NCBI RefSeq assembly: GCF_001646655.1
Contig: NZ_LPZN01000024.1
Location: 1-35,752, forward strand
DNA from: Rhodococcus gordoniae
GTDB lineage: Bacteria > Actinomycetota > Actinomycetes > Mycobacteriales > Mycobacteriaceae
Direction of reading: 5' to 3'
DNA length: 35,752 nt
The first letter of the stretch is position 1; every line of letters starts with the position of its first letter. The notes below the pieces were generated by a model. That model made no database searches. It saw only the letters and a program-made list of their open reading frames with translations, and was not told the origin of the DNA. Made by a program: the position numbers and the translations under genes. Of the stretch, positions 3,445 to 32,670 are shown piece by piece.

Positions 3445-4332
3445 ATGGAAACGGCGGGGGAGTCCCTTCTCACGGACGAGCAGTGGGGAAACGAGGTGCT
3501 CCTGCCGCATCGGCCGTTCGCGACGAACCAACTCGAGCACGGTCAGTACCGAATGAGCCGTGACCAGGCATTGATGATGCGCTACATCCAGCACTCTCCA
3601 CACGCGTTGCTCGGATCGATCGTCATCGACTGTGACCACCCCGATGCCGCGATGCGGGCGTTCGAGAAACCGTCGGATCATCCGACGCCGAGCTGGGTCG
3701 CGCAGTCTCCCTCCGGGCGGGCGCACCTGGGTTGGTGGCTGGGCGACCATCGAGTCTGCCGTACCGACTCGGCACGGTTGACTCCGCTGCGCTACGCCCA
3801 TCGCATCGAGCGAGGTCTGTGTATCTCCGTCGGTGGGGACTTCTCCTACGGTGGGCAGCTGACCAAGAACCCGATCCACCCTGAGTGGGAAACCATTTAC
3901 GGTCCAGGGGATCCGTACTCGTTGCGGGATCTGGCGACCATCTACACACCTCGTCAGGCTCCGCGCCGGCCCGACCGCTCCGTGGGCCTGGGTCGCAATG
4001 TGACGATGTTCGACACTGCCCGTAAGTGGGCGTACCCACAGTGGTGGCACCATCGTCATGGCACCGTAGACCAGTGGCTCCAACTGGTTCTTCAGCGTTG
4101 TCACGGAATCAACAGCGAGTTCGCCGACCCTCTTCCTTTCATCGAGGTCCGTGCCACGGCGTACTCCATCGGCAAGTGGATCTGGCGTAACTTCGACGAG
4201 GGGACGTTCCGGGCGCGCCAGGCAGCACGTGGCAGCAAGGGCGGCAAGGTCATGAGCTCCGCCAAACGGGAAGCAAACAGGAAGCGGGCCACCAAGTTCA
4301 ATCTGGCGACAGCATTGGAGTTCGCGCAATGA
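3445..4332 (+). CDS. repA: RepA replication initiator, pAL5000 type
   Basis: 295-residue theta-type replication initiator that would open and prime the origin. It matches the pAL5000/ColE2-like Replicase family pattern: N-terminal RMSRDQALMMRYIQHSP, then an acidic IVIDCDHPDAAMRAF block (about residues 58-72), a GRAHLGWWL block (about 91-99), and YGGQLTKNPIHPEW (about 135-148). The C-terminus is basic (GSKGGKVMSSAKREANRKR). The full length agrees with relatives, so the first ATG at 3445 is kept although no Shine-Dalgarno precedes it; CACAGT 7 bases upstream could be a leaderless -10. It overlaps repB by ATGA at 4329-4332, the standard operon layout. Iterons lie directly upstream. Confidence 0.88.
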   Translation: METAGESLLTDEQWGNEVLLPHRPFATNQLEHGQYRMSRDQALMMRYIQHSPHALLGSIVIDCDHPDAAMRAFEKPSDHPTPSWVAQSPSGRAHLGWWLGDHRVCRTDSARLTPLRYAHRIERGLCISVGGDFSYGGQLTKNPIHPEWETIYGPGDPYSLRDLATIYTPRQAPRRPDRSVGLGRNVTMFDTARKWAYPQWWHHRHGTVDQWLQLVLQRCHGINSEFADPLPFIEVRATAYSIGKWIWRNFDEGTFRARQAARGSKGGKVMSSAKREANRKRATKFNLATALEFAQ

Positions 4333-4592
4333 GGGGCAGCGCCCAGGCACAACAACGTCGGTCCATCACCGCAAAGGAACTGGCACGCCGGCTCGGCTCG
4401 TCGGAGCGCACTGCACGTCGCCTGATTGCCGAACCCCGAGACCAATTCCTCGAACGCGCGGAACGCCGACGCAAGCAGGTGGTCGAACTTCGCCAGCAGG
4501 GGATGAAGTACCGCGAGATCGCCGAGAAACTGGAGATGTCGACCGGAGCGGTGGGTCGGATACTGCATGATGCCCGCAAGCTCGAGGGGTAG
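4329..4592 (+). CDS. repB: RepB DNA-binding replication protein
   Basis: 87-residue protein, the typical partner of RepA in pAL5000-type plasmids, where it binds the origin and activates it. Two helix-turn-helix patterns are visible: ITAKELARRLGSSERTARRLI near the N-terminus and KYREIAEKLEMSTGAVGRIL near the C-terminus. A basic helical linker (ERAERRRKQVVELRQQ) joins them. Its ATG overlaps the repA stop, so translation is coupled. The 70 bp to the convergent gene that ends at 4663 show no obvious terminator. Confidence 0.85.
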   Translation: MRGSAQAQQRRSITAKELARRLGSSERTARRLIAEPRDQFLERAERRRKQVVELRQQGMKYREIAEKLEMSTGAVGRILHDARKLEG

Positions 4593-4662
4593 GAGCGGCT
4601 TCCGCGTGAAACGATTCGATTCCCCTTCACCGCTGTGGTTCTGACCGGAGCGAGAATTTCGT

Positions 4663-5958
4663 TCAGTAGCGGTGCCGGTCGAAGCGGTCCCCGCGGGTCC
4701 GGGTGCGCATGCCCGAGCGCTGGAACAGTATCTGCCGGATCTCGGCGAGAGCGGTGGCACGGGTGTCGTCGCTGGCCGGAGGATGAGCAGCACGCCGGTC
4801 GAGTTCGGCGCGACGTTCGGCGGCGCGGCGGTCCTGGATCTCAGTGCGGCGCTCGGTGGGGGTAGGCCCTGACCACACATCGGCGAGGGCACGGAGCTGC
4901 CAGCGCAGGAAAGCGGTCGGGGACGCTAGGTGTGGGAGGCTGCGGTCGCGGCGGAACTCGGTGATCTGGTCGGCTACGTCGTCGCCGGTCCATCGGGTGG
5001 TGTCGATGCCTGCGGCGGTCAGGGCATCGGCGATCGCTCCGACGTGGTGATGGGTGGTTCCGGGGACGTAGTGGCCATTCCGATCCACGCCGCGGTATTC
5101 GGGCATCGTGGCACCGAGTCGGTCGGCCAGGCGCGCTGCGGCGATCTGAGCGTGCAGGGGTCGTGGGTCGCCCTCGCCCTCGCCCTCGGCCTTCGTCGAA
5201 GCCCGGGCGCGGCGCGTAGCGCGCGCGTTGGTGATTACTTGAGAACGAGAGATACCTGTAGAACCCAAAGGGTTCTCCGGTAGATCCGCATGATTCGGAA
5301 ACTGGGGATAAACAGAAGAGTTGGCAGTGAACTTGCTGGTCAAGGCCCACACGGAAGCTGCACGAAGTTGCTTTCCACCGTGGGTGAGGCTGGCTTCGAT
5401 GCGTTCGGCGATGGTGAGGTAGCGGCCGCGGACGAGCTCGACGGCGGCTCCGATGCGGCGAAGGATCTGGCGGGCACGATCGAGGACGTCGGTGCTGATG
5501 CCGGCGTACTCGGCGAGGGTGTCGCGGGCGGCGGTGAGGCTGCGGCCGGTGGATTCGTCGGCGTAAGCGGCGTGAGCGTTGGCGGCGGCGATGAACTTGT
5601 CCGGGGCGATGCGGTGCTCGTGGCAGATCTTGATGCCGGTCTCGCTGCGGGCGAAGGTGATGATCTGGCGCATCCACCCCATGCGGGAGTCCCAGACGGG
5701 GATGGGGGAGTAGGCACCATCGGCTACGCGGAGGTTGTAGCTGCCGCGACGGCGACCACGGCGGGTCTGGGGAGTGGCGCGGCCGGGACCTCGACGGTTG
5801 TCCCCGGCGGTGTGTGCGCTCCGTTGAGGGCGACACGCGGGAGTGTGATTTGAGACGGAAGTTGGCCCAAACGAGCAGCGCTCGCTAATATGCATAACGA
5901 AGGCTTTCTGGTGAGAAAGTTCGAGTGCCCGAGGAGTTTGGCGACTTTGCTCGGTCAC
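4663..5958 (-). CDS. winged-helix Rep-like DNA-binding protein
   Basis: 431-residue protein. Residues about 70-210 contain segments (YNLRVADG, WDSRMGWMRQIITFA, LAEYAGISTDVLDRARQILRRIGAAVELVRGRYLTIAERIEA) that look like a winged helix-turn-helix with the word order seen in replication-associated proteins of actinobacterial plasmids. The middle (about 230-270) is basic and low-complexity (RATRRARASTKAEGEGEGD), the C-terminus is Arg/Glu-rich and helical. GTG start at 5958 is the longest; an ATG at residue 22 is also possible. Convergent with repAB. A second replication or copy-control factor is the likeliest role, but I cannot name the family with certainty. Confidence 0.6.
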   Translation of the reverse strand: MTEQSRQTPRALELSHQKAFVMHISERCSFGPTSVSNHTPACRPQRSAHTAGDNRRGPGRATPQTRRGRRRGSYNLRVADGAYSPIPVWDSRMGWMRQIITFARSETGIKICHEHRIAPDKFIAAANAHAAYADESTGRSLTAARDTLAEYAGISTDVLDRARQILRRIGAAVELVRGRYLTIAERIEASLTHGGKQLRAASVWALTSKFTANSSVYPQFPNHADLPENPLGSTGISRSQVITNARATRRARASTKAEGEGEGDPRPLHAQIAAARLADRLGATMPEYRGVDRNGHYVPGTTHHHVGAIADALTAAGIDTTRWTGDDVADQITEFRRDRSLPHLASPTAFLRWQLRALADVWSGPTPTERRTEIQDRRAAERRAELDRRAAHPPASDDTRATALAEIRQILFQRSGMRTRTRGDRFDRHRY

Positions 5959-6239: not shown

Positions 6240-6427
6240 GCGTAAACCCCCGTTCTTCAAGATCGGCCCGTTGAATCTGACTCAGGTTAGCGGCTGCGAG
6301 CGCGGATGTCAGTTACCCCCGTACATCGGCGTGGCGCGTGTCGACTAGTGGGACGGCAGTCAGGGAGCCCTTGAGCGGTGGGAGGCGGCGGTGTGTCTCT
6401 CGCCGGCGGTGGGGCACACTCTCACGA

Positions 6428-7837
6428 ATGGCGTCACCGCAGCTTTCGACGAGCAGCCCTGCGACCACCGACTCCCAGCCGATCCCGCGACCTCGATGGA
6501 GACTGCCGCTGGTGGGTGATCTGCTCAGCATCGACGTGGCCAAGCCGGTTCAGGGTGAGATGCAGATGGCGCAGGAACTCGGTGGGATCTTCGAACGCAA
6601 GATCCTCCAGCACCGGCTGATCGTGGTCTCCGGCGCCGATCTGGTGCGCGAGGTCAACGACGAGGAGAAGTGGGCGAAGTTCCTCGGCAAGCCGCTGCGC
6701 AAGCTTCGCGTCATCGCCGGCGACGGGCTGTTCACCGCGTTCAACTCCGAACCGAACTGGAGCAAGGCCCACAACATCCTCGGTCCGGGCTTCAGCCAGG
6801 CCGCGATGCGCGGCTATCACGACTCGATGCTCACCGTCGTCGGCCGGCTGGTCGACAGCTGGGACAGCGCAGCGGCCGGCGGCGAGTATGTGGACGTGCC
6901 GAAGAGCATGACGTCGCTGACCTTCGACGTCATCGGCCGGTGCGGCTTCAGCTACGACTTCGACTCGTTCGGCCGCCCCGAACCCGATCCCTTCATCGCG
7001 GCGATGAGCCGGGCGCTCGAGTACATCAACCGCTCGTCGAACGACATTCCGATCCTGCGGGCCCTGTTCGGTCGCGCGGCGCGTGAGCAGCACGAACGCG
7101 ACATCGCGTTGATGCAGGAGACGGTCGATCGCATCGTCGAGGAGCGGATGCACTCCGGTGGGCAGCACGGCGATCTGCTGGATCTGATGATGCACACCGT
7201 CGATCCCGACACCGGCGAGAAGCTCAGTCCGGAGTCGATCCGCAATCAGGTGCTGACCTTCCTGGTCGCGGGCAACGAGACCACTGCGGCCACTCTGGGT
7301 TTCGCGGTTCATTTCCTGAGCCGACATCCCGAGGCGGTGGCGAAGGCGCGGGCGGAGATCGCCGAGGTCGTCGGCGCCGACGGCCGGATTGGGTACGAAC
7401 AGGTCGCCAAGCTGCGGTATGTGCGGCGGGTGGTGGACGAGACGCTGCGGTTGTGGCCGGCCGCCCCGGGTTATTTCCGCAAGGTGCGTGGTGAGACCAC
7501 CCTCGGCGGGCGCGTCCTGCCGAAGGGTTCGTGGGTGTTCGTACTGCTGCCGCAGCTGCACCGGGACCCGCTGTGGGGCGACGATCCCGAGCGGTTCGAC
7601 CCGGATCGATTCGAGCCCGAGGCCGTGCGCAAACGGCCGGCGCACATCTTCAAGCCGTGGGGCACCGGGATCCGGGCGTGCATCGGTCGGCAGTTCGCGT
7701 TGCACGAGGCGGTGCTCACGCTCGCATCGCTGATCCGGCGGTACGACTTCGCTCCGGAACCGGGTTACGAGCTCGACGTGCACGAGGCGATCACTCTCAA
7801 ACCGCGGGGGTTGAAGGTCAAGCTCTCACGTCGGTGA
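6428..7837 (+). CDS. cytochrome P450, CYP102-like heme domain only
   Basis: 469-residue heme monooxygenase. Family hallmarks in order: WSKAHNILGPGFSQAAMRGYH (about 113-133), I-helix AGNETTAA with the oxygen-activating Thr (about 281-288), ExxR as ETLR (E338, R341), and the heme loop WGTGIRACIGRQFALHEA with ligand Cys418. The spacing and the words around each motif resemble the heme domain of Bacillus CYP102 (BM3), which binds fatty acids, but the fused reductase is absent, so it must take electrons from separate redox partners that are not encoded nearby. ATG at 6428 fits the family length; no Shine-Dalgarno is seen and CACACT 7 bases upstream could be a leaderless -10. Substrate cannot be read from the sequence; a fatty acid or other hydrophobic compound is plausible. 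Confidence 0.9.
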   Translation: MASPQLSTSSPATTDSQPIPRPRWRLPLVGDLLSIDVAKPVQGEMQMAQELGGIFERKILQHRLIVVSGADLVREVNDEEKWAKFLGKPLRKLRVIAGDGLFTAFNSEPNWSKAHNILGPGFSQAAMRGYHDSMLTVVGRLVDSWDSAAAGGEYVDVPKSMTSLTFDVIGRCGFSYDFDSFGRPEPDPFIAAMSRALEYINRSSNDIPILRALFGRAAREQHERDIALMQETVDRIVEERMHSGGQHGDLLDLMMHTVDPDTGEKLSPESIRNQVLTFLVAGNETTAATLGFAVHFLSRHPEAVAKARAEIAEVVGADGRIGYEQVAKLRYVRRVVDETLRLWPAAPGYFRKVRGETTLGGRVLPKGSWVFVLLPQLHRDPLWGDDPERFDPDRFEPEAVRKRPAHIFKPWGTGIRACIGRQFALHEAVLTLASLIRRYDFAPEPGYELDVHEAITLKPRGLKVKLSRR

Positions 7838-25194: not shown

Positions 25195-27002
25195 ACGAGC
25201 GGGGTCAACAGCGGCCGACACAGCCGGTGATCCCGGTCGGCACCGGCCTGGTGGTCGTGGTGATCGGCGCGGTCCTGTGGACGGTGTACGCCGGGGGCGC
25301 GGTTGCCGGCCTGGTGACCGGGGCGGGTCCGGTGTTCCCGGAAGGGCTGTACGGCACGTTGTCGGTGTTGCGGGCGTTGGTGCTCACGCCGGGCGATCCG
25401 ACGGTGGGCTGGCCCGAGGACTCGCGGCCGGGCTCGGCGGTCGCGGTGTGGGTGTGCCTGATCGCAGCGATGCTGGTCTATATCGCCGTCGTCCTCGTGA
25501 TCGACGGGAAGGTTTCGGCACGTCAGCGCGCTAAGCGCACGCGCCAGGAAGGGTTTGCGGACCGGGCGGAGCTGCGGCGGCGCGGCCTCGATCGCAGGAG
25601 CGCGGTGAAAGCCGCGAAGACGAATCGGGCGAGCTTGGGTGATACTCCGGCCCGCAAGATCGACGCGCATCAGGTGGCGACCCGGATCGGCACGCTCTAC
25701 GACGAGCATGGCAAAGATGCCGAGGTGTTCGTCCAGTACCGGGACGGCACGCTGGTCGAGGGTCCGACCGGTTCGGGCAAGAGCTGGCGGTTGGCTTGGC
25801 AGCGGATCGTCGAGTCGGTCGGGTTCGTGCTGGCCACGACCACCAAACCTGATCTGCTGTGGTCGACGGTGGGGCAACGGTTGGCCTCCGGCCCGGTCGA
25901 GGTGTTCGACCCCGAGGGCATCACGCGGTGGCCGACGCCGATGCGGTGGTCTCTGCTGGCCAGCTGCGATGACCCGGATACGGCGATCCGGCGTGCCGAT
26001 GCGCTGGTGCAGGCTGTTCCCCTCGGCGATACCAAGAACAGTGGGTACTTCTCGACGAACGCAGCGAAGTACCTGCGGTGCTGTCTGTATGCGGCAGCGG
26101 TGTCCGGTGGGGACGTGACCACCTTCTATCGCTGGGCGATGCAGCGGCAGGTGCCGAAGGTCAAGGAGATTCTGGACCGGGACCTGCCGACGTGGAGCGT
26201 GGAGTATTCGCAGCTCGGCGGCTCGGGATCGGATTCGGTCGACGATGTGATGTCGACGGTCTCGACGCTGCTCGATCCCCTCGCCTCACCGAAGTTGATG
26301 GCGGCAGTCAACGTCACCGCCGACGAGTCGGTGAACCTCGCGCAGCTCATCCGCGACGGCGGGACGCTGTATCTGATCTCCGAAGGCTCCTACGGCTCAA
26401 GTGCACCGATCGTCACGGCGTTGGCGGCGGAGGCGTATTACCTGGCCAAAGAAATTTCGCGGGAGTACCCAGAGGAGAGAATCGATCCTCCGGTGCGGTT
26501 CGTTCTCGATGAGGTCAACAATGTCGCGCCCATCCCGGATCTGCCCGACAAGGTATCCGACAGCGCCGGGCGAGGAATCTCGATCTGGGCGTTCTGCCAC
26601 GGTCAGGAGCAGAACATCCGGCGATGGGGTCCGAGCGCGGGGAAGATGTTCACGACGAACTCGCCGGTGCGAATCATCCTGCCCGGCCTCGGTGATGTGA
26701 ACGAGCTCGAGCAGATCTCCCGATTGACCGGTGAGCGCGAAGAGTGGTGGTCTCCGACGCAGGCTCCTCGGCAGACGAAGGTGATGACCGCCCCGGAGAT
26801 TCGCGGAATGCCTGCTGACCAGGCATTGATGATCTACCGGGGTGCGGCTCCGGCGCGGGTCCATCTACCGCTGGTGTGGGACATTCCGCACTGGAAGAAA
26901 CGGGTGCTCGACTCTCAAGAGGTCTACAACTGGGTCTGCGAGACGGGGGAGCTGCCCGATTGGGCTTGGTCCCGCACGGGCGGGGAAGTGGTGCTCGGAT
27001 GA
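25191..27002 (+). CDS. type IV coupling protein (TraD/VirD4-like)
   Basis: 603-residue membrane ATPase that would deliver the relaxase-DNA complex to the channel. Two N-terminal membrane helices (about 15-38 and 82-104), Walker A EGPTGSGKSWRLAW (about 191-204), DPEGI block, Walker B RFVLDEVNNVAPIPDLP (about 437-453), and the motif SIWAFCHGQEQNIRRWG used by VirD4/TraG proteins. The C-terminus (TGERE...QAPRQTKVMTAPEIRGMPADQALMIYRG) matches the TraM-recognition-type end. GTG start overlaps the stop of the VirB4-like gene. Its own stop overlaps the next ATG (ATGA at 26999). Confidence 0.88.
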   Translation: MNERGQQRPTQPVIPVGTGLVVVVIGAVLWTVYAGGAVAGLVTGAGPVFPEGLYGTLSVLRALVLTPGDPTVGWPEDSRPGSAVAVWVCLIAAMLVYIAVVLVIDGKVSARQRAKRTRQEGFADRAELRRRGLDRRSAVKAAKTNRASLGDTPARKIDAHQVATRIGTLYDEHGKDAEVFVQYRDGTLVEGPTGSGKSWRLAWQRIVESVGFVLATTTKPDLLWSTVGQRLASGPVEVFDPEGITRWPTPMRWSLLASCDDPDTAIRRADALVQAVPLGDTKNSGYFSTNAAKYLRCCLYAAAVSGGDVTTFYRWAMQRQVPKVKEILDRDLPTWSVEYSQLGGSGSDSVDDVMSTVSTLLDPLASPKLMAAVNVTADESVNLAQLIRDGGTLYLISEGSYGSSAPIVTALAAEAYYLAKEISREYPEERIDPPVRFVLDEVNNVAPIPDLPDKVSDSAGRGISIWAFCHGQEQNIRRWGPSAGKMFTTNSPVRIILPGLGDVNELEQISRLTGEREEWWSPTQAPRQTKVMTAPEIRGMPADQALMIYRGAAPARVHLPLVWDIPHWKKRVLDSQEVYNWVCETGELPDWAWSRTGGEVVLG

Positions 27003-27619
27003 GCGGGTACACGCCGGGCCGGTTGTCGTGGCGGCATCTCGACCAGGAACAAGCCCAACAGTTGTGGGACGAGTTGATCGACTGGGTGGAGTGGTTTCGC
27101 GGCTGCTATCGGCTCACCGATCGGATCAAGGGCTGCTGGTATCGGCACCCGAAGATGGTCGAGGAACTGACGGCGGCGATGTCGGCGCACAAGGTCGCCT
27201 ACGAACAGCTCGGCGACGGTCAGGTGCATTCGTGGTCGCCGGGAAGCTGGCACTACCAGGTCTATCAACCGCTTCTGCAACGGCTGGCGGTCAACTCCGA
27301 CGAGTTCGGCGACTGTATCGACGGGCGCTGCGAACCGCCGACCGTGCAGGTCACGCTGCTCGAGGGGGCACGGGAGTGGATCGCGGCGGACATCGCGGCG
27401 CGGCCGACCCCGATCGCGGCGGCGGTCGCTGCGACCGGATCGTTCTCGGACTCGGGCAACGGGGTGAAGCCGGTGGTGATCGATGCTGCGCGGATGGTCG
27501 ATCTGATCGACTCGGGAGATGCCGAACCGGTTGAGGCTGACGATGAGTTCGGGCCGGTCTCGTATGACGGTCACGTTTGGGAGTGGTCCGACGATACAGA
27601 GGGGTACGTACGGACCTAG
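26999..27619 (+). CDS. DUF4913 protein, last gene of the transfer operon
   Basis: 206 residues. The core WDELIDWVEWFRGCYRLTDRIKGCWYRHPKMVEELTAAMSAHKVAYEQ is the DUF4913 pattern (W, CWYRHP, EEL), a family that commonly sits next to coupling-protein genes on actinobacterial plasmids and integrative elements. Cys at GCY, GCW and DCIDGRCE could bind metal or form disulfides. It is soluble, with an acidic tail. ATG overlaps the coupling protein's stop. Probable partner of the coupling protein or relaxosome; no enzymatic motif is visible. Confidence 0.75.
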   Translation: MSGYTPGRLSWRHLDQEQAQQLWDELIDWVEWFRGCYRLTDRIKGCWYRHPKMVEELTAAMSAHKVAYEQLGDGQVHSWSPGSWHYQVYQPLLQRLAVNSDEFGDCIDGRCEPPTVQVTLLEGAREWIAADIAARPTPIAAAVAATGSFSDSGNGVKPVVIDAARMVDLIDSGDAEPVEADDEFGPVSYDGHVWEWSDDTEGYVRT

Positions 27620-27625
27620 TGACTG

Positions 27626-27717
27626 CCGAGGACATCGGAACCGGACTCACCACCCGGCCTGTCCTCGGTGTGGTGGTCGGCCGCGAAGAGTGCCCGCCCA
27701 GGCGTCGTGGCCGACCA
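27626..27717. repeat. two consecutive perfect inverted repeats after the transfer operon
   Basis: First: CCGAGGACA (27626-27634) against TGTCCTCGG (27660-27668). Second: TGGTCGGCC (27674-27682) against GGCCGACCA (27709-27717). Both have 9-bp perfect arms and loops of about 25. They start 7 bases after the last gene of the operon, so they probably end it or protect its 3' end; an oriT function cannot be excluded. No U-run follows either. From 27718 to about 27915 I see no gene; this part is AT-rich near 27838-27920. Confidence 0.5.
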
Positions 27718-27921
27718 TTCCGCACGGACGCGACCTCGAACTGGGGTTTCCCGCTCAGATCGAAGTCGTGTCCGTTGTGTGTTCGGTCTATCCGGTTGGC
27801 CCTCGCGGGAGGAGTGGAACGCCCCCTGAGTGGCACCCAGGAAAATTTCAATTAGGCCCCGTGCTGTCCAAGGGGTGTATAAATTTTTGCGTAAGAGTGA
27901 TACCCTTTCTGTAGAACAAGA

Positions 27922-27960
27922 GGGCGGATGCTCCCAGCTAGTGCTGGAAACATCCGCCTC
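27922..27960 (-). terminator. rho-independent terminator of the 37-codon gene
   Basis: On the minus strand GGCGGATG (27958-27951) pairs with CATCCGCC (27930-27923), with an inner stem CCAGC/GCTGG around the loop ACTA, followed by the U-rich CTCTTGTTCT. It begins 6 bases after the stop codon of the small gene. Confidence 0.75.
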
Positions 27961-27966
27961 GAACAA

Positions 27967-28080
27967 CTAGATAATGACCAGTTGCTCAAACATCTTGTCC
28001 AGAGTCCAACGGGTTAGTACGCCGGCAAGCATGCGCCCGAGGACACCCCAGATGCGCTTACGCGCAGCGACAGATGTCAT
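27967..28080 (-). CDS. 37-residue cationic amphipathic peptide
   Basis: Small gene missed by length cut-offs. ATG at 28078-28080 follows an excellent Shine-Dalgarno (AAAGGAGA, 6 bases upstream), and TAG at 27967-27969 is directly followed by a strong terminator. The peptide runs MTSVAARKRIWGVLGRML, then AGVLTRWTLDKMFEQLVII. It has no signal peptide or precursor-type Gly-Gly site, net charge about +4, two Trp, and alternating basic and hydrophobic residues typical of a membrane-active helix. Candidates: leaderless bacteriocin-like peptide, type I toxin-like peptide, or a membrane regulator. The leader upstream holds a terminator hairpin, suggesting controlled expression. I recognise no family. 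Confidence 0.6.
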   Translation of the reverse strand: MTSVAARKRIWGVLGRMLAGVLTRWTLDKMFEQLVII

Positions 28081-28120
28081 CTGATCTCCTTTCTTCAGTT
28101 GAGAGTAGCTGGCGCAGAAA

Positions 28121-28149
28121 AGCCGACTCCGGTATTACCGGGGTCGGCT
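28121..28149 (-). terminator. hairpin terminator in the small-gene leader / after traA
   Basis: On the minus strand AGCCGAC and CCGGT pair with ACCGG and GTCGGCT around the loop AAT (one mismatched position), followed by TTTTCTG. It lies 100 bases past the traA stop, so it can end traA, and also 40 bases before the 37-codon gene and downstream of an extended -10 promoter, so it can act as an attenuator. An alternative stem CGGCTA/TAGCCG (28163-28158 with about 28151-28146) uses the same first arm and would exclude the terminator. Confidence 0.7.
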
Positions 28150-28168
28150 AGACGCGTTAGCCGTGAGA

Positions 28169-28177
28169 ATCATATCA
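28169..28177 (-). promoter_or_regulatory. extended -10 promoter for the 37-codon gene
   Basis: On the minus strand TGATATGAT holds TATGAT (28174-28169) preceded by TG, an extended -10 that needs no strong -35; none is evident. Transcription would start near 28162, just before the attenuator-like hairpin. Confidence 0.45.
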
Positions 28178-28248
28178 CACCGCTCCAACTGGGCTTTTCC
28201 GGAGACGCGAGCCCGTTTCCGGCCCCACGCATTCCCCTCCGCCCCCAG

Positions 28249-31200
28249 TCAGATCCGCCTCGTCCGGTGTTCAATCCCGGCGACCGCAGACCGAGGTTCC
28301 GGGGTGTCAACCGCATTCCGCTCTGGTCGCGTCCGCTCCTTGTGCAGTTGGAGACGCTGACGTTCGACGTTGGTCCAGTCGAGTGCGGCCCGGCGATCTT
28401 TGGGCCGGCCTCCGACGAGAGTGTCCTCGTCGGTGATGTGGTGCGTACTTCGGTAAGCAGCCGCGTCCGCGACGGTGGCACGCCACAGAGCAGCGTGTTC
28501 GGGATCGTCGGGGCAGGCGTCGAGGCTCGCGTATGCCCAGATCGGTGCGGTGTCGTCGGTGAGCTGATCGCGGAAGTCGCGGTGGAGCTCGGCGATGGCC
28601 TGGTAGTCCTCGCGGATCGTGGCGGCGAGTTCGGGGTCGATGGTGTCGGCGTCGGACACGGGCGCGACGACCCATTCGGGTGCGTCGGGGTTCGTGAGGT
28701 CGCGTCCGTCGGCGGCGAGGCGGTCGAGTTCGGCGAGGAGCACGGTCGCTGGGGCGGTGGCTCCGGTCCGCTCTGCCAGATCGGCCACGACCTCCTCAAT
28801 GCTCGCTCCGCTGAGGCGGTGGAGATGTTCGATGCGTCCGGCGATGGCCTGGGCGCGTTCGTCGTCGGTCTGCAACGCGAGCGTGGGCAGGTGCTCGGCG
28901 ATGGTCTCTTCGTGCTCGGTGAGCCATGCGGTGTTGCGGCGGGCGATCAGCTCGGTCAGGGGCTTGGCCATGTCGGAGCGCAGCGCGGCCGCGGTGGTGT
29001 CGACGCCGTTTGCGGCAAGGCGTTCGTGGTGCCAGGTGAGCAGGTTGATCGGGTCTACGCCGGCTTGGGCGGCGCGGTGGAGCTGGCGGGCGAGCAGTCG
29101 TGCGGAGGATTCTTCGGCGATGCGGGCACCGAGTTCTTCTCCGAGTGCAGCGGTGGCGAGGGTGCGAACTCTCTGTGTTTCGAGCAGTGCGGAGGTGTCG
29201 CGGTAGCGGCGGATGACCTCGCCGATGCCGGTGTCTGCGGCCGCGGCGCGGTCGGTGGTCTCGGTGTAGCGGCGGGCGCATTCGACCGCGAAGTCGTGCA
29301 TGTCCGTGTCGGTGTGGAGCGGGTCTCGGATCGGTAGCGGCGGCAATGTCGGGTGTTCGGTGAACTGGCCGACGATGGCGCGGGTGCGGTGGGCGAGGAC
29401 CGCTCCGATGTCTTTCGCTCCGGCGAGGGGGCCTTCGGCGAGGGCGTGTCCGAGGAGCGTGCGGGTGCTGTGGCCGTGGTCGTGGGCATCGGCGAGGACC
29501 TGGCGAAGCTGCGCCCATCCTTCGGTGCCTTCGATTGTGGCGGCGATGTGTTCGGGCAGGGTGCGGCGCATCTCGGTCTCGAGTGCGTCGTCGCGGAGGC
29601 GGCGTTGGGCGGCCAGATATGCCTCGCGCAGCCGCTCCGGGTCGGTGGCGTGGGCGGCTTGTTCGGCGAGTTCTTCGGTGGCGGTGCGGTGGCCGTTGTC
29701 GGTGGCGACGACGGTTTCGAGGATCATCCGGCCGGTGGAGACGTTCTTGTCTTCGAGGTGCGGACGCTCGGTGTCGAGGTTGACGGGCACGTCGACCGGG
29801 ACGTAGATCCGGTTGTCGGTGCGGGCGCGGGTGACGGCCACATACAGCCCGGAGCGGTCCATGTCGGGGGTGATGATGGCGTGGGCGGTGTCGACGGTGA
29901 CGCCCTGGGCGCGGTGCACGGTGGAGGCGTAGCCGAGTTGCACGTGGGTGCTGATGTAGTCGGCCGGCAGGGTGATGACGCCGCCGTGTTCGAGGTGCCG
30001 GACGGTCAGTGCGCCGCGTTCGGAGACGACATCGAGCACTTCCCACAGGTCGCCGTTTCGCACGAACGCTCCGGCTTTCTTTCCGCCGGAGGGGTTCAGA
30101 TCGCGGCGGTTGCTGCGGGTGAGCACGATGTCGCCGCGGCCTGCGGTGAGTTCGTCGGCGAGGGCGACGGTGGTGGATTCGTCGCTGGTTCCGTCGTGGC
30201 GGCGTACGGCCTGGACTTGGATGTTCGCTGCCGTGACGTCCTCGCGGGTGGGCAGCATGACGATGGATTCTTTACCGTCGGCGAGGTCGTGGAGGTAGTT
30301 CTCGACGGCCTGGCCGATCATTTCTTCGCGCGTTCCTTCGCGCACGAGGTCGCGTTCGTAGATCAGGTCCAGGCCGGTGGAGTCACCGGATCGCAGCAGC
30401 ATCGAGTTTTCGGCTTGAGCGGTGTCGTTGCCGAATCGGACCACGGTGTCGAGTTCGGGAGCGTCGGTGTTCTGCGCCAGATAGCGCAGAATTCCGCCGG
30501 TTTCCACAGCGTCGAGCTGGGCCGGGTCACCGAGCAGGCGGACGACTGCGCCACGTTCCTTGGCGATCTCGACGACGGCGGCGAGGTCGAGGGTGGAGGC
30601 AAGGGATGCTTCGTCGACGAGCAGCATCGTGCCCGGTGCGATGTCGATGCCGGCCGGAAGTGTGCCGGGGCGACTGCCGACGAGACCACGCCAGGGGTAG
30701 GTCAGGGAGGCCAGGGTCAGGCCGGTGACGCCGACTTCTTCGCCGAGTGTTTCGGCGGCGACTGCGGAGGGTGCGAGGGCTATGACGCCCCGGCCTTCGT
30801 TTTGCCATGCCTGCACGACGACTTTCATGCTGGTGGTCTTGCCGGTTCCTGCGGGTCCGACACCGACGGCCAGCAGTGCCCCGGATTGCAGGAAGTGCTC
30901 GGTCAAGGTGCGCTGGCCGGCGTTGAGGTTGCGCCCGGTTTCGGCGCGCATCGTCTCGTACACCTCGTAGATCGAGGCGGTTCGAGCGGTGAAGACGGTG
31001 GGTTCGCTGGTGGCCGATGCCAGCATCGTTTCGGCGTCGAGGATGCGCTGGGAGCTGTGTTTGTGGCTGCCGTGGTGGGACAGAACGAAATCGCCGTTAC
31101 GTCGGCGCAGACGCCTCGGGATCGCGGGCAGCTCGACGCGTGGGGTGGTGACCGACAACTCCACGACCCGGCTGGTGAGTCGATCGACTGCCGTCCGGTA

Positions 31201-32670
31201 GGTGTCGAGGTCGGGGAACGTCTCACCGCCGAGGTGGGCCTGGACTGCGGAGACGATGTGTGGCAGTTGCCAGCGCGAGCGCTTGGATTCGAGCTTGGTG
31301 ATCACGGCTCGGGCGTCGTCGTCGAGGCTGCGGCGCTGTGGCCTCGGGGCGTGATCGGCGGCGAAGGCGTCGCGGACGAGCTGGTCGACAGCCTCGTTGC
31401 CGCCGAGGATTTCGGCGGCCTTCTCGCGCCATTCTGCGCGCATCTCGGCGAGTGATTTCGCGTCGGCCTTGCCTTCGCGGGTGTCGAGGGTTGCTTGTTG
31501 ATAAAGCTGATACATCGTCTTGGCGTCGGGCATCCGCTGGTACTTGGCGCGGTACTCGGCCACGAGTTCGTCGCGGCGGGCCTCGATCACGCTGCGGCGG
31601 GAGCTGAACATCTCGAGCATGTCGCGGGGAATGACGGCCAGTTCGACGACGGGTTGCTTGCCCTGATCGATCTCGCGGTGGGTCAGCTCGAGGCCGAGTT
31701 CGGTGCTCAGGCGCTGCATCACTTCGGCGTTGAATCGCTGCGAGGCGGCGACGGCAAAGCGGAACATGGTCGATCCGTCGACGGCTCGCCACTTGCCGTC
31801 TTCGGCGGCCTGGGTCTTGATCGACACGACGGCGTGGGTGTGCAGATTGGGGTCCCCGCAGCGGGAATCGAAGTGCTTGTAGAGGGTCGCGACGAAACCG
31901 TTGGTGTCGATCTGTTCCTCGCCGTTGCGGCCGACGCGAGTGAAGCAGGCGTTCTCTTCGAGCCACCGGAGGGTGTCTTTCACCGTGGCATCGACGATGC
32001 GCTCGATCTCGATACGCGTCTCGTTCGGTGCCAGTGCCCACAGGCTCGACACGCTCTTGGGCGGTGTGAAAACCAGGTCGTGGCCGGCTACCGGGTGTCG
32101 GACTTTGCCCTTCTCGTGGGCAATCCAGTTCCGCAATTCGGCCTCGTTCGCGACTGGCCGGCCGTGCTTGTCCTGGAACATACCTCCGGCGATGCGGTCG
32201 AGGATCGCAGCGGTTTCCTCCGGACTCGGGGCGTGCCCGTGGGTATCGGTGTACTCGGCGATTTCGGCCGCGTGTCGGTCGAACAGCTCGACGTTGTTCT
32301 TGAAGGTCGGGAACTTTCGCCCGAGTCGAGCGAGCCGGATTGCGTCCTCGGAGGGGACGCCTCGATCGATGAGTTCGGCGATCATGGCATCGGCATTCGG
32401 ATGGAGACCTTCGCCGAACAATGCCTTCATTTGCGCCTCGGTGACGACATCTCCGACCGAGATCCGGTCGGCGTTCGCGACGTGGATGTCGTCGAGAAGG
32501 TCGTTCAAACCGTCGACGCCGGAGCCGAACCATTCGCCGGGCGGTGTGCCGTGTGCGGTGTAGTAGTCGGTCAGTTCTGCTCCACGTTCACGCTCGCGGT
32601 CGGCTGTGGCGACCTGACGTGTCAGGTACTCGTAGCCGTCCGCTGCGTGCAGGACGTGGAGGGTCATCAC
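28249..32670 (-). CDS. traA: MobF-type relaxase-helicase TraA
   Basis: 1473-residue conjugative relaxase that nicks oriT, stays bound to the 5' end and unwinds the strand to be moved. The N-terminal TrwC-like relaxase has a candidate catalytic Tyr pair (Y36 Y37 in DYYTAHG), HDLVFTPPKSVSSLWAL (about 197-213) and the metal-binding histidines in DPNLHTHAV (H277, H279). The SF1 helicase domain has Walker A GPAGTGKTTS near residue 650 and further RecD-like motifs (VDEAS, YASTVHRAQGVTVD). The C-terminal 500 residues are helical and charged. GTG at 32670 is preferred: TAAGAT lies exactly 7 bases upstream (leaderless), although the ATG next to it is possible. Very long open frames on the opposite strand are composition shadows. 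Confidence 0.92.
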   Translation of the reverse strand: MMTLHVLHAADGYEYLTRQVATADRERERGAELTDYYTAHGTPPGEWFGSGVDGLNDLLDDIHVANADRISVGDVVTEAQMKALFGEGLHPNADAMIAELIDRGVPSEDAIRLARLGRKFPTFKNNVELFDRHAAEIAEYTDTHGHAPSPEETAAILDRIAGGMFQDKHGRPVANEAELRNWIAHEKGKVRHPVAGHDLVFTPPKSVSSLWALAPNETRIEIERIVDATVKDTLRWLEENACFTRVGRNGEEQIDTNGFVATLYKHFDSRCGDPNLHTHAVVSIKTQAAEDGKWRAVDGSTMFRFAVAASQRFNAEVMQRLSTELGLELTHREIDQGKQPVVELAVIPRDMLEMFSSRRSVIEARRDELVAEYRAKYQRMPDAKTMYQLYQQATLDTREGKADAKSLAEMRAEWREKAAEILGGNEAVDQLVRDAFAADHAPRPQRRSLDDDARAVITKLESKRSRWQLPHIVSAVQAHLGGETFPDLDTYRTAVDRLTSRVVELSVTTPRVELPAIPRRLRRRNGDFVLSHHGSHKHSSQRILDAETMLASATSEPTVFTARTASIYEVYETMRAETGRNLNAGQRTLTEHFLQSGALLAVGVGPAGTGKTTSMKVVVQAWQNEGRGVIALAPSAVAAETLGEEVGVTGLTLASLTYPWRGLVGSRPGTLPAGIDIAPGTMLLVDEASLASTLDLAAVVEIAKERGAVVRLLGDPAQLDAVETGGILRYLAQNTDAPELDTVVRFGNDTAQAENSMLLRSGDSTGLDLIYERDLVREGTREEMIGQAVENYLHDLADGKESIVMLPTREDVTAANIQVQAVRRHDGTSDESTTVALADELTAGRGDIVLTRSNRRDLNPSGGKKAGAFVRNGDLWEVLDVVSERGALTVRHLEHGGVITLPADYISTHVQLGYASTVHRAQGVTVDTAHAIITPDMDRSGLYVAVTRARTDNRIYVPVDVPVNLDTERPHLEDKNVSTGRMILETVVATDNGHRTATEELAEQAAHATDPERLREAYLAAQRRLRDDALETEMRRTLPEHIAATIEGTEGWAQLRQVLADAHDHGHSTRTLLGHALAEGPLAGAKDIGAVLAHRTRAIVGQFTEHPTLPPLPIRDPLHTDTDMHDFAVECARRYTETTDRAAAADTGIGEVIRRYRDTSALLETQRVRTLATAALGEELGARIAEESSARLLARQLHRAAQAGVDPINLLTWHHERLAANGVDTTAAALRSDMAKPLTELIARRNTAWLTEHEETIAEHLPTLALQTDDERAQAIAGRIEHLHRLSGASIEEVVADLAERTGATAPATVLLAELDRLAADGRDLTNPDAPEWVVAPVSDADTIDPELAATIREDYQAIAELHRDFRDQLTDDTAPIWAYASLDACPDDPEHAALWRATVADAAAYRSTHHITDEDTLVGGRPKDRRAALDWTNVERQRLQLHKERTRPERNAVDTPEPRSAVAGIEHRTRRI

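Follow-up and report, generated by a model that had tools for sequence, protein, structure and literature searches.

The window analysed here, 35,752 nucleotides of a plasmid contig of Rhodococcus gordoniae (NZ_LPZN01000024.1), contains on its minus strand a short open reading frame (ORF), MTSVAARKRIWGVLGRMLAGVLTRWTLDKMFEQLVII, at positions 27967..28080, which runs from ATG through 37 codons to TAG. As a preliminary description of this DNA had noted, the start codon lies 5 bases behind a Shine-Dalgarno sequence, AAAGGAG (28092-28086, minus strand). The strong terminator claimed there was also recovered: a stem-loop of 16 pairs, 10 of them G-C, begins 8 bases 3' of the stop (27958-27923) and is followed by the tail CTCTTGTTCT, the complete element covering 27913..27958 on the minus strand. 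One terminator-like site was found in 27600-28300, where shuffled sequences average 0.5.

The motif TGNTANNNT, which we take for an extended -10, a type of element recognised by the housekeeping sigma factors of actinobacteria, occurs once in the 150 nt upstream of the ORF, as TGATATGAT at 28169..28177 (minus strand). With the start set 7 nt past this element and the end at the terminator tail, the predicted peptide mRNA is 250 nt long (27913..28162, minus strand) and opens with a hairpin at 28107..28162 (minus strand). An AT-rich plus-strand stretch at 27838-27920 had been suggested as the place where an antisense RNA could start; it has a GC content of 0.42, against 0.60-0.71 in the 1-kb bins of the window, and holds a second extended -10, TGATACCCT, at 27898-27906 (plus strand), ending 60 nt past the ORF stop. 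The predicted antisense RNA (27913..28080, plus strand) has its 5' end placed 7 nt past this -10, a point at which the tail of the sense terminator also ends in the window, and its 3' limit placed arbitrarily at the start of the ORF. A scan of both strands of 27600-28300 returned no classical sigma-70 promoter with -35 and -10, so the proposed promoters are defined by the extended -10 alone.

The ORF is flanked on one side by a MobF (TrwC-type) relaxase gene at 28249-32670 (Pfam PF08751, E 1.9e-80), the single TrwC match of its genome, and on the other by a gene at 26999-27619 with no Pfam match, which follows a TraG/TraD-type gene (TraG-D_C, E 1.2e-15). The region had been called otherwise empty, and in the identical plasmid pLW3 no gene is annotated between the stops at 27619 and 28249. 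The same gap between the relaxase and its partner was seen in 8 of 11 other plasmids viewed, with varied cargo, and is a hotspot for cargo genes on Rhodococcus plasmids. The cargo in these eight (L006, L007, L031-L033 and L035-L037, at the place of window 27619-28249) includes a Pycsar defence pair, an MFS transporter, DUF2786, TIGR04255 with a regulator, and hypothetical genes. Elsewhere on the plasmid contig, the ORF at 6338-7837 (plus strand) presumably carries a cytochrome P450-like haem motif.

A tblastn search of 72,556 plasmid records with the peptide (E up to 10) returned four records, all from Rhodococcus and all covering residues 1-37. Plasmid pLW3 of Rhodococcus sp. LW-XY12 carries an identical copy (100%), with 761 bases around the ORF also identical. 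The other three, pKNR of R. opacus B4 (E 8e-3), the plasmid of R. qingshengii CL-05 (E 0.09) and pRECF1 of R. erythropolis CCM2595 (E 0.5), encode full-length peptides 38-51% identical to that of the window. These pairwise values are weak by themselves for the distant relatives (8e-3 to 0.5); the CL-05 peptide used as query found pRECF1 at 3e-11 and pLW3 at 0.07, and the pKNR peptide found pLW3 at 0.01. A sixth occurrence, a 97% copy in R. zopfii, was the sole match of a scan of genome contigs; about 700 bases to each side of it, scored in 50-base bins, agree with the window at 82-100%. The six occurrences (window, pLW3, pKNR, CL-05, pRECF1 and R. zopfii) represent five distinct sequences, and all are plasmid-borne or, in two draft genomes, located in the same relaxase-side setting. 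The ORF is unannotated in the relatives, and nothing is annotated over it in pLW3. The homology looks real, judging from full-length, same-frame matches of 37-38 residues that are unannotated and share a common layout.

The preliminary description held that such an expression unit was more than chance, and named loss of the frame from related plasmids as the observation that would count against it; relatives on plasmids of four kinds have kept the frame, with its length unchanged. Ten alignment columns are invariant (M1, G15, L18, G20, R24, L27, F31, L34, V35 and I37), and codon changes lean to synonymous, with pN/pS of 0.17-0.76 over 10 non-independent pairs and 0.39 for CL-05/pRECF1.

The peptide family is rare. 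Profile searches covered overlapping sets of 18 genomes of the genus, 401 of the family, 28 of the R. opacus genus, 61 of the family, 397 of the order and 396 of the phylum (a counter of 1,306), with up to 19 first-look candidates scored per genome in the sets of 401, 397 and 396. Full-length matches came from the genome of the window and two others, in which the match places are those of the R. zopfii and pKNR copies; the remaining listed matches were partial, at E 1.5e-3 or weaker. Viral contigs gave no match, and the phage search gave a single match at E 4. Several further candidates were rejected. The pKNR peptide matched 12 Sinorhizobium records (E 0.9-2) as well as one Azospirillum and one Phaeobacter record (E 6 and 9). 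The Sinorhizobium record that was fetched has no stop at the end of the peptide and is almost unannotated, and the match in one further record falls under a cupin gene. Hits of the CL-05 peptide in one Sinorhizobium and one Actinomyces record (E 4-5) lie under named genes, and for the match in L021 (E 0.0045) none of the three forward frames has a small ORF with the pattern of the family.

The annotated names within about 5 kb define three settings: relaxase and conjugation genes in the window and pLW3, joined by R. zopfii through its DNA match; a helicase-related gene, a sigma factor and a CopG-type regulator in pKNR; and a resolvase-type recombinase, an MFS transporter and hypothetical genes in CL-05 and pRECF1, which are similar to each other. 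No gene is common to the three by annotated name within this distance. Given these different surroundings and the varied cargo of the gap, the module appears autonomous and, in the window, placed in a cargo site.

The five distinct sequences share one order of elements: extended -10, 5' hairpin, Shine-Dalgarno sequence, ORF, 3' hairpin and convergent extended -10. GGAG precedes the start in all five, and the 3' hairpin of pKNR has only a weak T tract. Each copy has exactly one sense TGNTANNNT in the 150 nt upstream, at -97 in the window and R. zopfii, -106 in pKNR, -92 in CL-05 and -91 in pRECF1, and exactly one antisense TGNTANNNT in the 150 nt downstream, ending 60 nt past the stop in the window, R. 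zopfii and CL-05, 58 nt in pKNR and 59 nt in pRECF1. In none of 20,000 dinucleotide shuffles of the window, pKNR and CL-05 did all three sequences have the two elements at matched places (within 2 nt for the antisense and 15 nt for the sense element), a result that is no clean p-value since the pattern was picked after the copies had been viewed. The intergenic region of pKNR (L002 4800-5420) matches a second place on that plasmid.

The layout was also written as a filter that makes no use of the peptide sequence, calling on both strands for an ATG or GTG start with a Shine-Dalgarno sequence, 25-60 codons, a sense TGNTANNNT at -120 to -60, a 3' hairpin and an antisense TGNTANNNT with its end 40-90 nt past the stop. 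Applied to the window and the four family plasmids (473,249 bases, with 120,000 of the 123,183 of CL-05), it returned the 5 copies and no other locus. It returned none in the controls, 1.41 Mb in total: 1,009,571 bases from seven further Rhodococcus plasmids, drawn from eleven without a profile match and cut short at the end in five cases, and 400,000 bases of the R. opacus chromosome. The limits were tuned on the family, the loop limit being raised from 8 to 12 nt to admit the pKNR copy and the minimum stem lowered to 6, and the window and pLW3 carry identical copies, so that these counts gauge a false-positive rate and are not an independent discovery; the filter was run on pieces of up to 20 kb, and a locus spanning the edge of a piece would escape it.

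Comparison of CL-05 with pRECF1 indicates where the locus is most conserved. Identity is 42/52 in the leader, 93/114 (82%) in the ORF and 35/45 in the 3' hairpin, against 59/60 in the segment of the antisense promoter (+45 to +105) and 47/60 in the next segment; the antisense promoter segment differs from the rest with a Fisher p of 1.7e-4, the segment having been picked after the alignment was seen. Among the 60-nt windows from -300 to +414, the best are two at 60/60, which span the antisense -10 and have their starts 155-156 nt from the ATG (41-42 nt past the stop). A second peak reaches 58/60 at +317 and beyond. It corresponds to about 5318-5414 of CL-05 (L003) and the matching part of pRECF1 (L004), before the resolvase-type gene. 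Further upstream, the bins from -700 to -350 (about 4301-4650 of CL-05, L003, and the matching part of pRECF1, L004) are at 50/50, 49/50, 48/50 and 48/50, so that over a longer stretch the antisense peak does not stand alone. Comparing the window with R. zopfii (59/60 in the antisense segment, 111/114 in the ORF) is uninformative on relative conservation, the two being too alike.

When each copy was folded from about 7 nt past its -10, a 5' hairpin was predicted in all five, with z of -4.6 in the window and -5.1, -5.5, -5.5 and -6.8 in the other four, none of 200 shuffles being as good in any copy. A joint alignment of these hairpins (MAFFT/RNAalifold) gave 16 pairs, 6 of them with changes on both sides, but the covariation term was unfavourable (+1.64) and many of the pairs are broken in CL-05 and pRECF1; the hairpin form is therefore claimed from the separate folds. 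A T run follows the hairpin in the window and R. zopfii copies only, and hence termination is not its common role. In these two the sequence 3' of the hairpin (window 28107-28162) is TTTTCT, where transcripts of the relaxase might also end. Pairing of the Shine-Dalgarno sequence with the last 25 nt, as is usual in type I systems, was predicted in three of the five copies (mean probability 0.51 in the window, 0.47 in R. zopfii and 0.49 in CL-05) and was 0 in pKNR and pRECF1. No common intrinsic terminator was found for the predicted antisense RNAs, a candidate being present in CL-05 only. An Rfam match to RNaseP-T, at 20.1 bits against a threshold of 60, was taken as chance.

The peptides of the five copies are 37-38 residues long, below the limit of about 60 that applies to type I toxins, each with its promoter-like site and 3' hairpin, and AlphaFold, run on the single sequence, predicted one helix over residues 3-36 (mean pLDDT 87.6). 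Parts of the earlier account of the peptide hold for the window and not for the family: the net charge of +4 is found in the window and R. zopfii and falls to +2 in pKNR, CL-05 and pRECF1, and of the two Trp residues present in the window neither is kept in all copies. The amphipathic pattern held in part, the best 18 residues lying at the N-terminal end with a moment of 0.31-0.44 in four copies (0.27, elsewhere in the peptide, in pKNR), but the moment of the whole helix was above that of shuffled sequence in none of the five (p 0.75-0.99). The best 19-residue Kyte-Doolittle mean was 0.73-1.32, below the level expected of a membrane-spanning toxin, and charges lie along the helix; the usual hydropathy level for a membrane span is 1.6. 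No match was found for the window peptide in Pfam, for four members in PHROGs and PADLOC, or in a PDB profile search; in NCBIfam, one of four members matched SPJ_0845_Nterm at E 0.081, below the cut-off.

From the arrangement of these elements, we read the locus as a plasmid-borne peptide module that is probably controlled by antisense RNA in a 3'-overlapping, type I-like manner resembling the toxin-antitoxins of Gram-positive bacteria, a reading to which we give a probability of about 0.55. The extended -10 would give rise to a short mRNA with a stable 5' hairpin and a terminator end, encoding a cationic helical peptide of 37-38 residues, and the convergent promoter just 3' of the terminator would produce an antisense RNA complementary to this mRNA from its 3' end inwards. 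The RNA duplex would block translation or recruit RNase III, and little peptide would be made while the plasmid is present. After plasmid loss the short-lived antisense RNA would disappear first, the hairpin-capped mRNA would last, and the peptide made from it would damage a cell that lacks the plasmid. What the sequences show is a conserved ORF, conserved promoter-like sites on the two strands, a predicted 5' hairpin and differing surroundings; we infer the existence of the RNAs, their repressive pairing, the toxicity of the peptide and the stabilisation of the plasmid. For a module carried by plasmids, their maintenance would be the natural role. Because toxicity is inferred and the hydropathy of the peptide falls short of a membrane span, we describe the module as working like type I systems and do not file it as a member. 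The more specific view, that Actinomycetota have here their first family of type I-like toxin-antitoxins, with plasmid addiction, a hairpin-capped mRNA, a charged helix unlike the known membrane-spanning type I toxins and an antisense start at the end of the sense transcript, is held tentatively, at slightly under even odds.

Of the other readings, the one that survives best is a small regulatory or membrane-associated peptide, not a toxin, kept under antisense control and tuning, for example, conjugation, exclusion or host physiology. The peptide is charged and not clearly membrane-spanning, its copies sit on large plasmids, and antisense control suits any peptide that has to be kept low. A shared process or partner is not obvious, since the three settings have no gene in common and the relaxase is adjacent in only one, and we consider this role unlikely, though still a serious contender. 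It is more doubtful that the conserved element is the antisense or hairpin RNA itself, acting in trans or as a dual-function RNA with the peptide secondary. Between CL-05 and pRECF1 the antisense promoter segment is indeed better conserved than the ORF, and every copy has a predicted 5' hairpin, but the synonymous lean and the retention of frame, length and ten residues at 38-51% identity point to the peptide. The preliminary description had offered three functions: the conserved antisense -10 speaks for that of a type I-like toxin, and the leaderless bacteriocin-like one gains nothing. A peptide released against competitors would suit the small, cationic, predicted helical product, with no signal sequence obvious by eye; nevertheless, going by annotated names within about 5 kb, the three settings share no immunity, transport or export gene of such a system (CL-05 and pRECF1 do share an upstream MFS transporter), the charge is only +2 in three copies and the antisense -10 would go unexplained, which leaves this reading very improbable. 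That a short ORF of a rare family arose by chance, without function, is scarcely credible, as it is contradicted by the conservation of frame, length and layout in unrelated settings and by the zero count of the filter in the controls.

The type I-like reading can be compared with described systems. A 2014 review states that all Gram-positive type I pairs then described overlap at their 3' ends (PMC4147584). Like the module proposed here, txpA/RatA and bsrG/SR4 of Bacillus subtilis encode a small peptide on mobile elements, and their RNAs overlap at the 3' ends by about 75 and 120 nt (PMC4147584); the present peptide differs in having no match among the models searched and no classical hydrophobic span, and its antisense RNA is so far a prediction. 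The par system of pAD1 (Fst, RNA I/RNA II) is also plasmid-borne, with RNAs that converge and overlap at the 3' ends (PMC4147584), but its two RNAs have a single terminator in common and it relies on direct repeats. Neither feature stood out here, and the present peptide is charged along its length. TisB and AapA1 are single short helices with charged residues (PMC8309996), as predicted for this peptide, and the mRNA of AapA3, related to AapA1, has terminal stem-loops at both ends (PMC6733600), comparable with the hairpins here; the Shine-Dalgarno sequestration of such mRNAs is predicted in three of the five copies, and the likeness is one of description.

Type I systems are reported to aid the maintenance of mobile elements in C. 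difficile (PMC7699646). According to a 2025 paper, they were known only in Proteobacteria, Firmicutes and Tenericutes before its cyanobacterial case, and it attributes this narrow range to search methods (PMC12390103). Among the matches listed in our open-access searches, no title or beginning of an abstract named a type I system of Actinobacteria or Rhodococcus, and if the reading is true, no type I-like system of Actinomycetota precedes this one among the matches so listed. The locus provides a concrete actinobacterial candidate, together with a layout that is independent of peptide sequence and by which others may be sought, and the module could partly explain the persistence of large plasmids in Rhodococcus.
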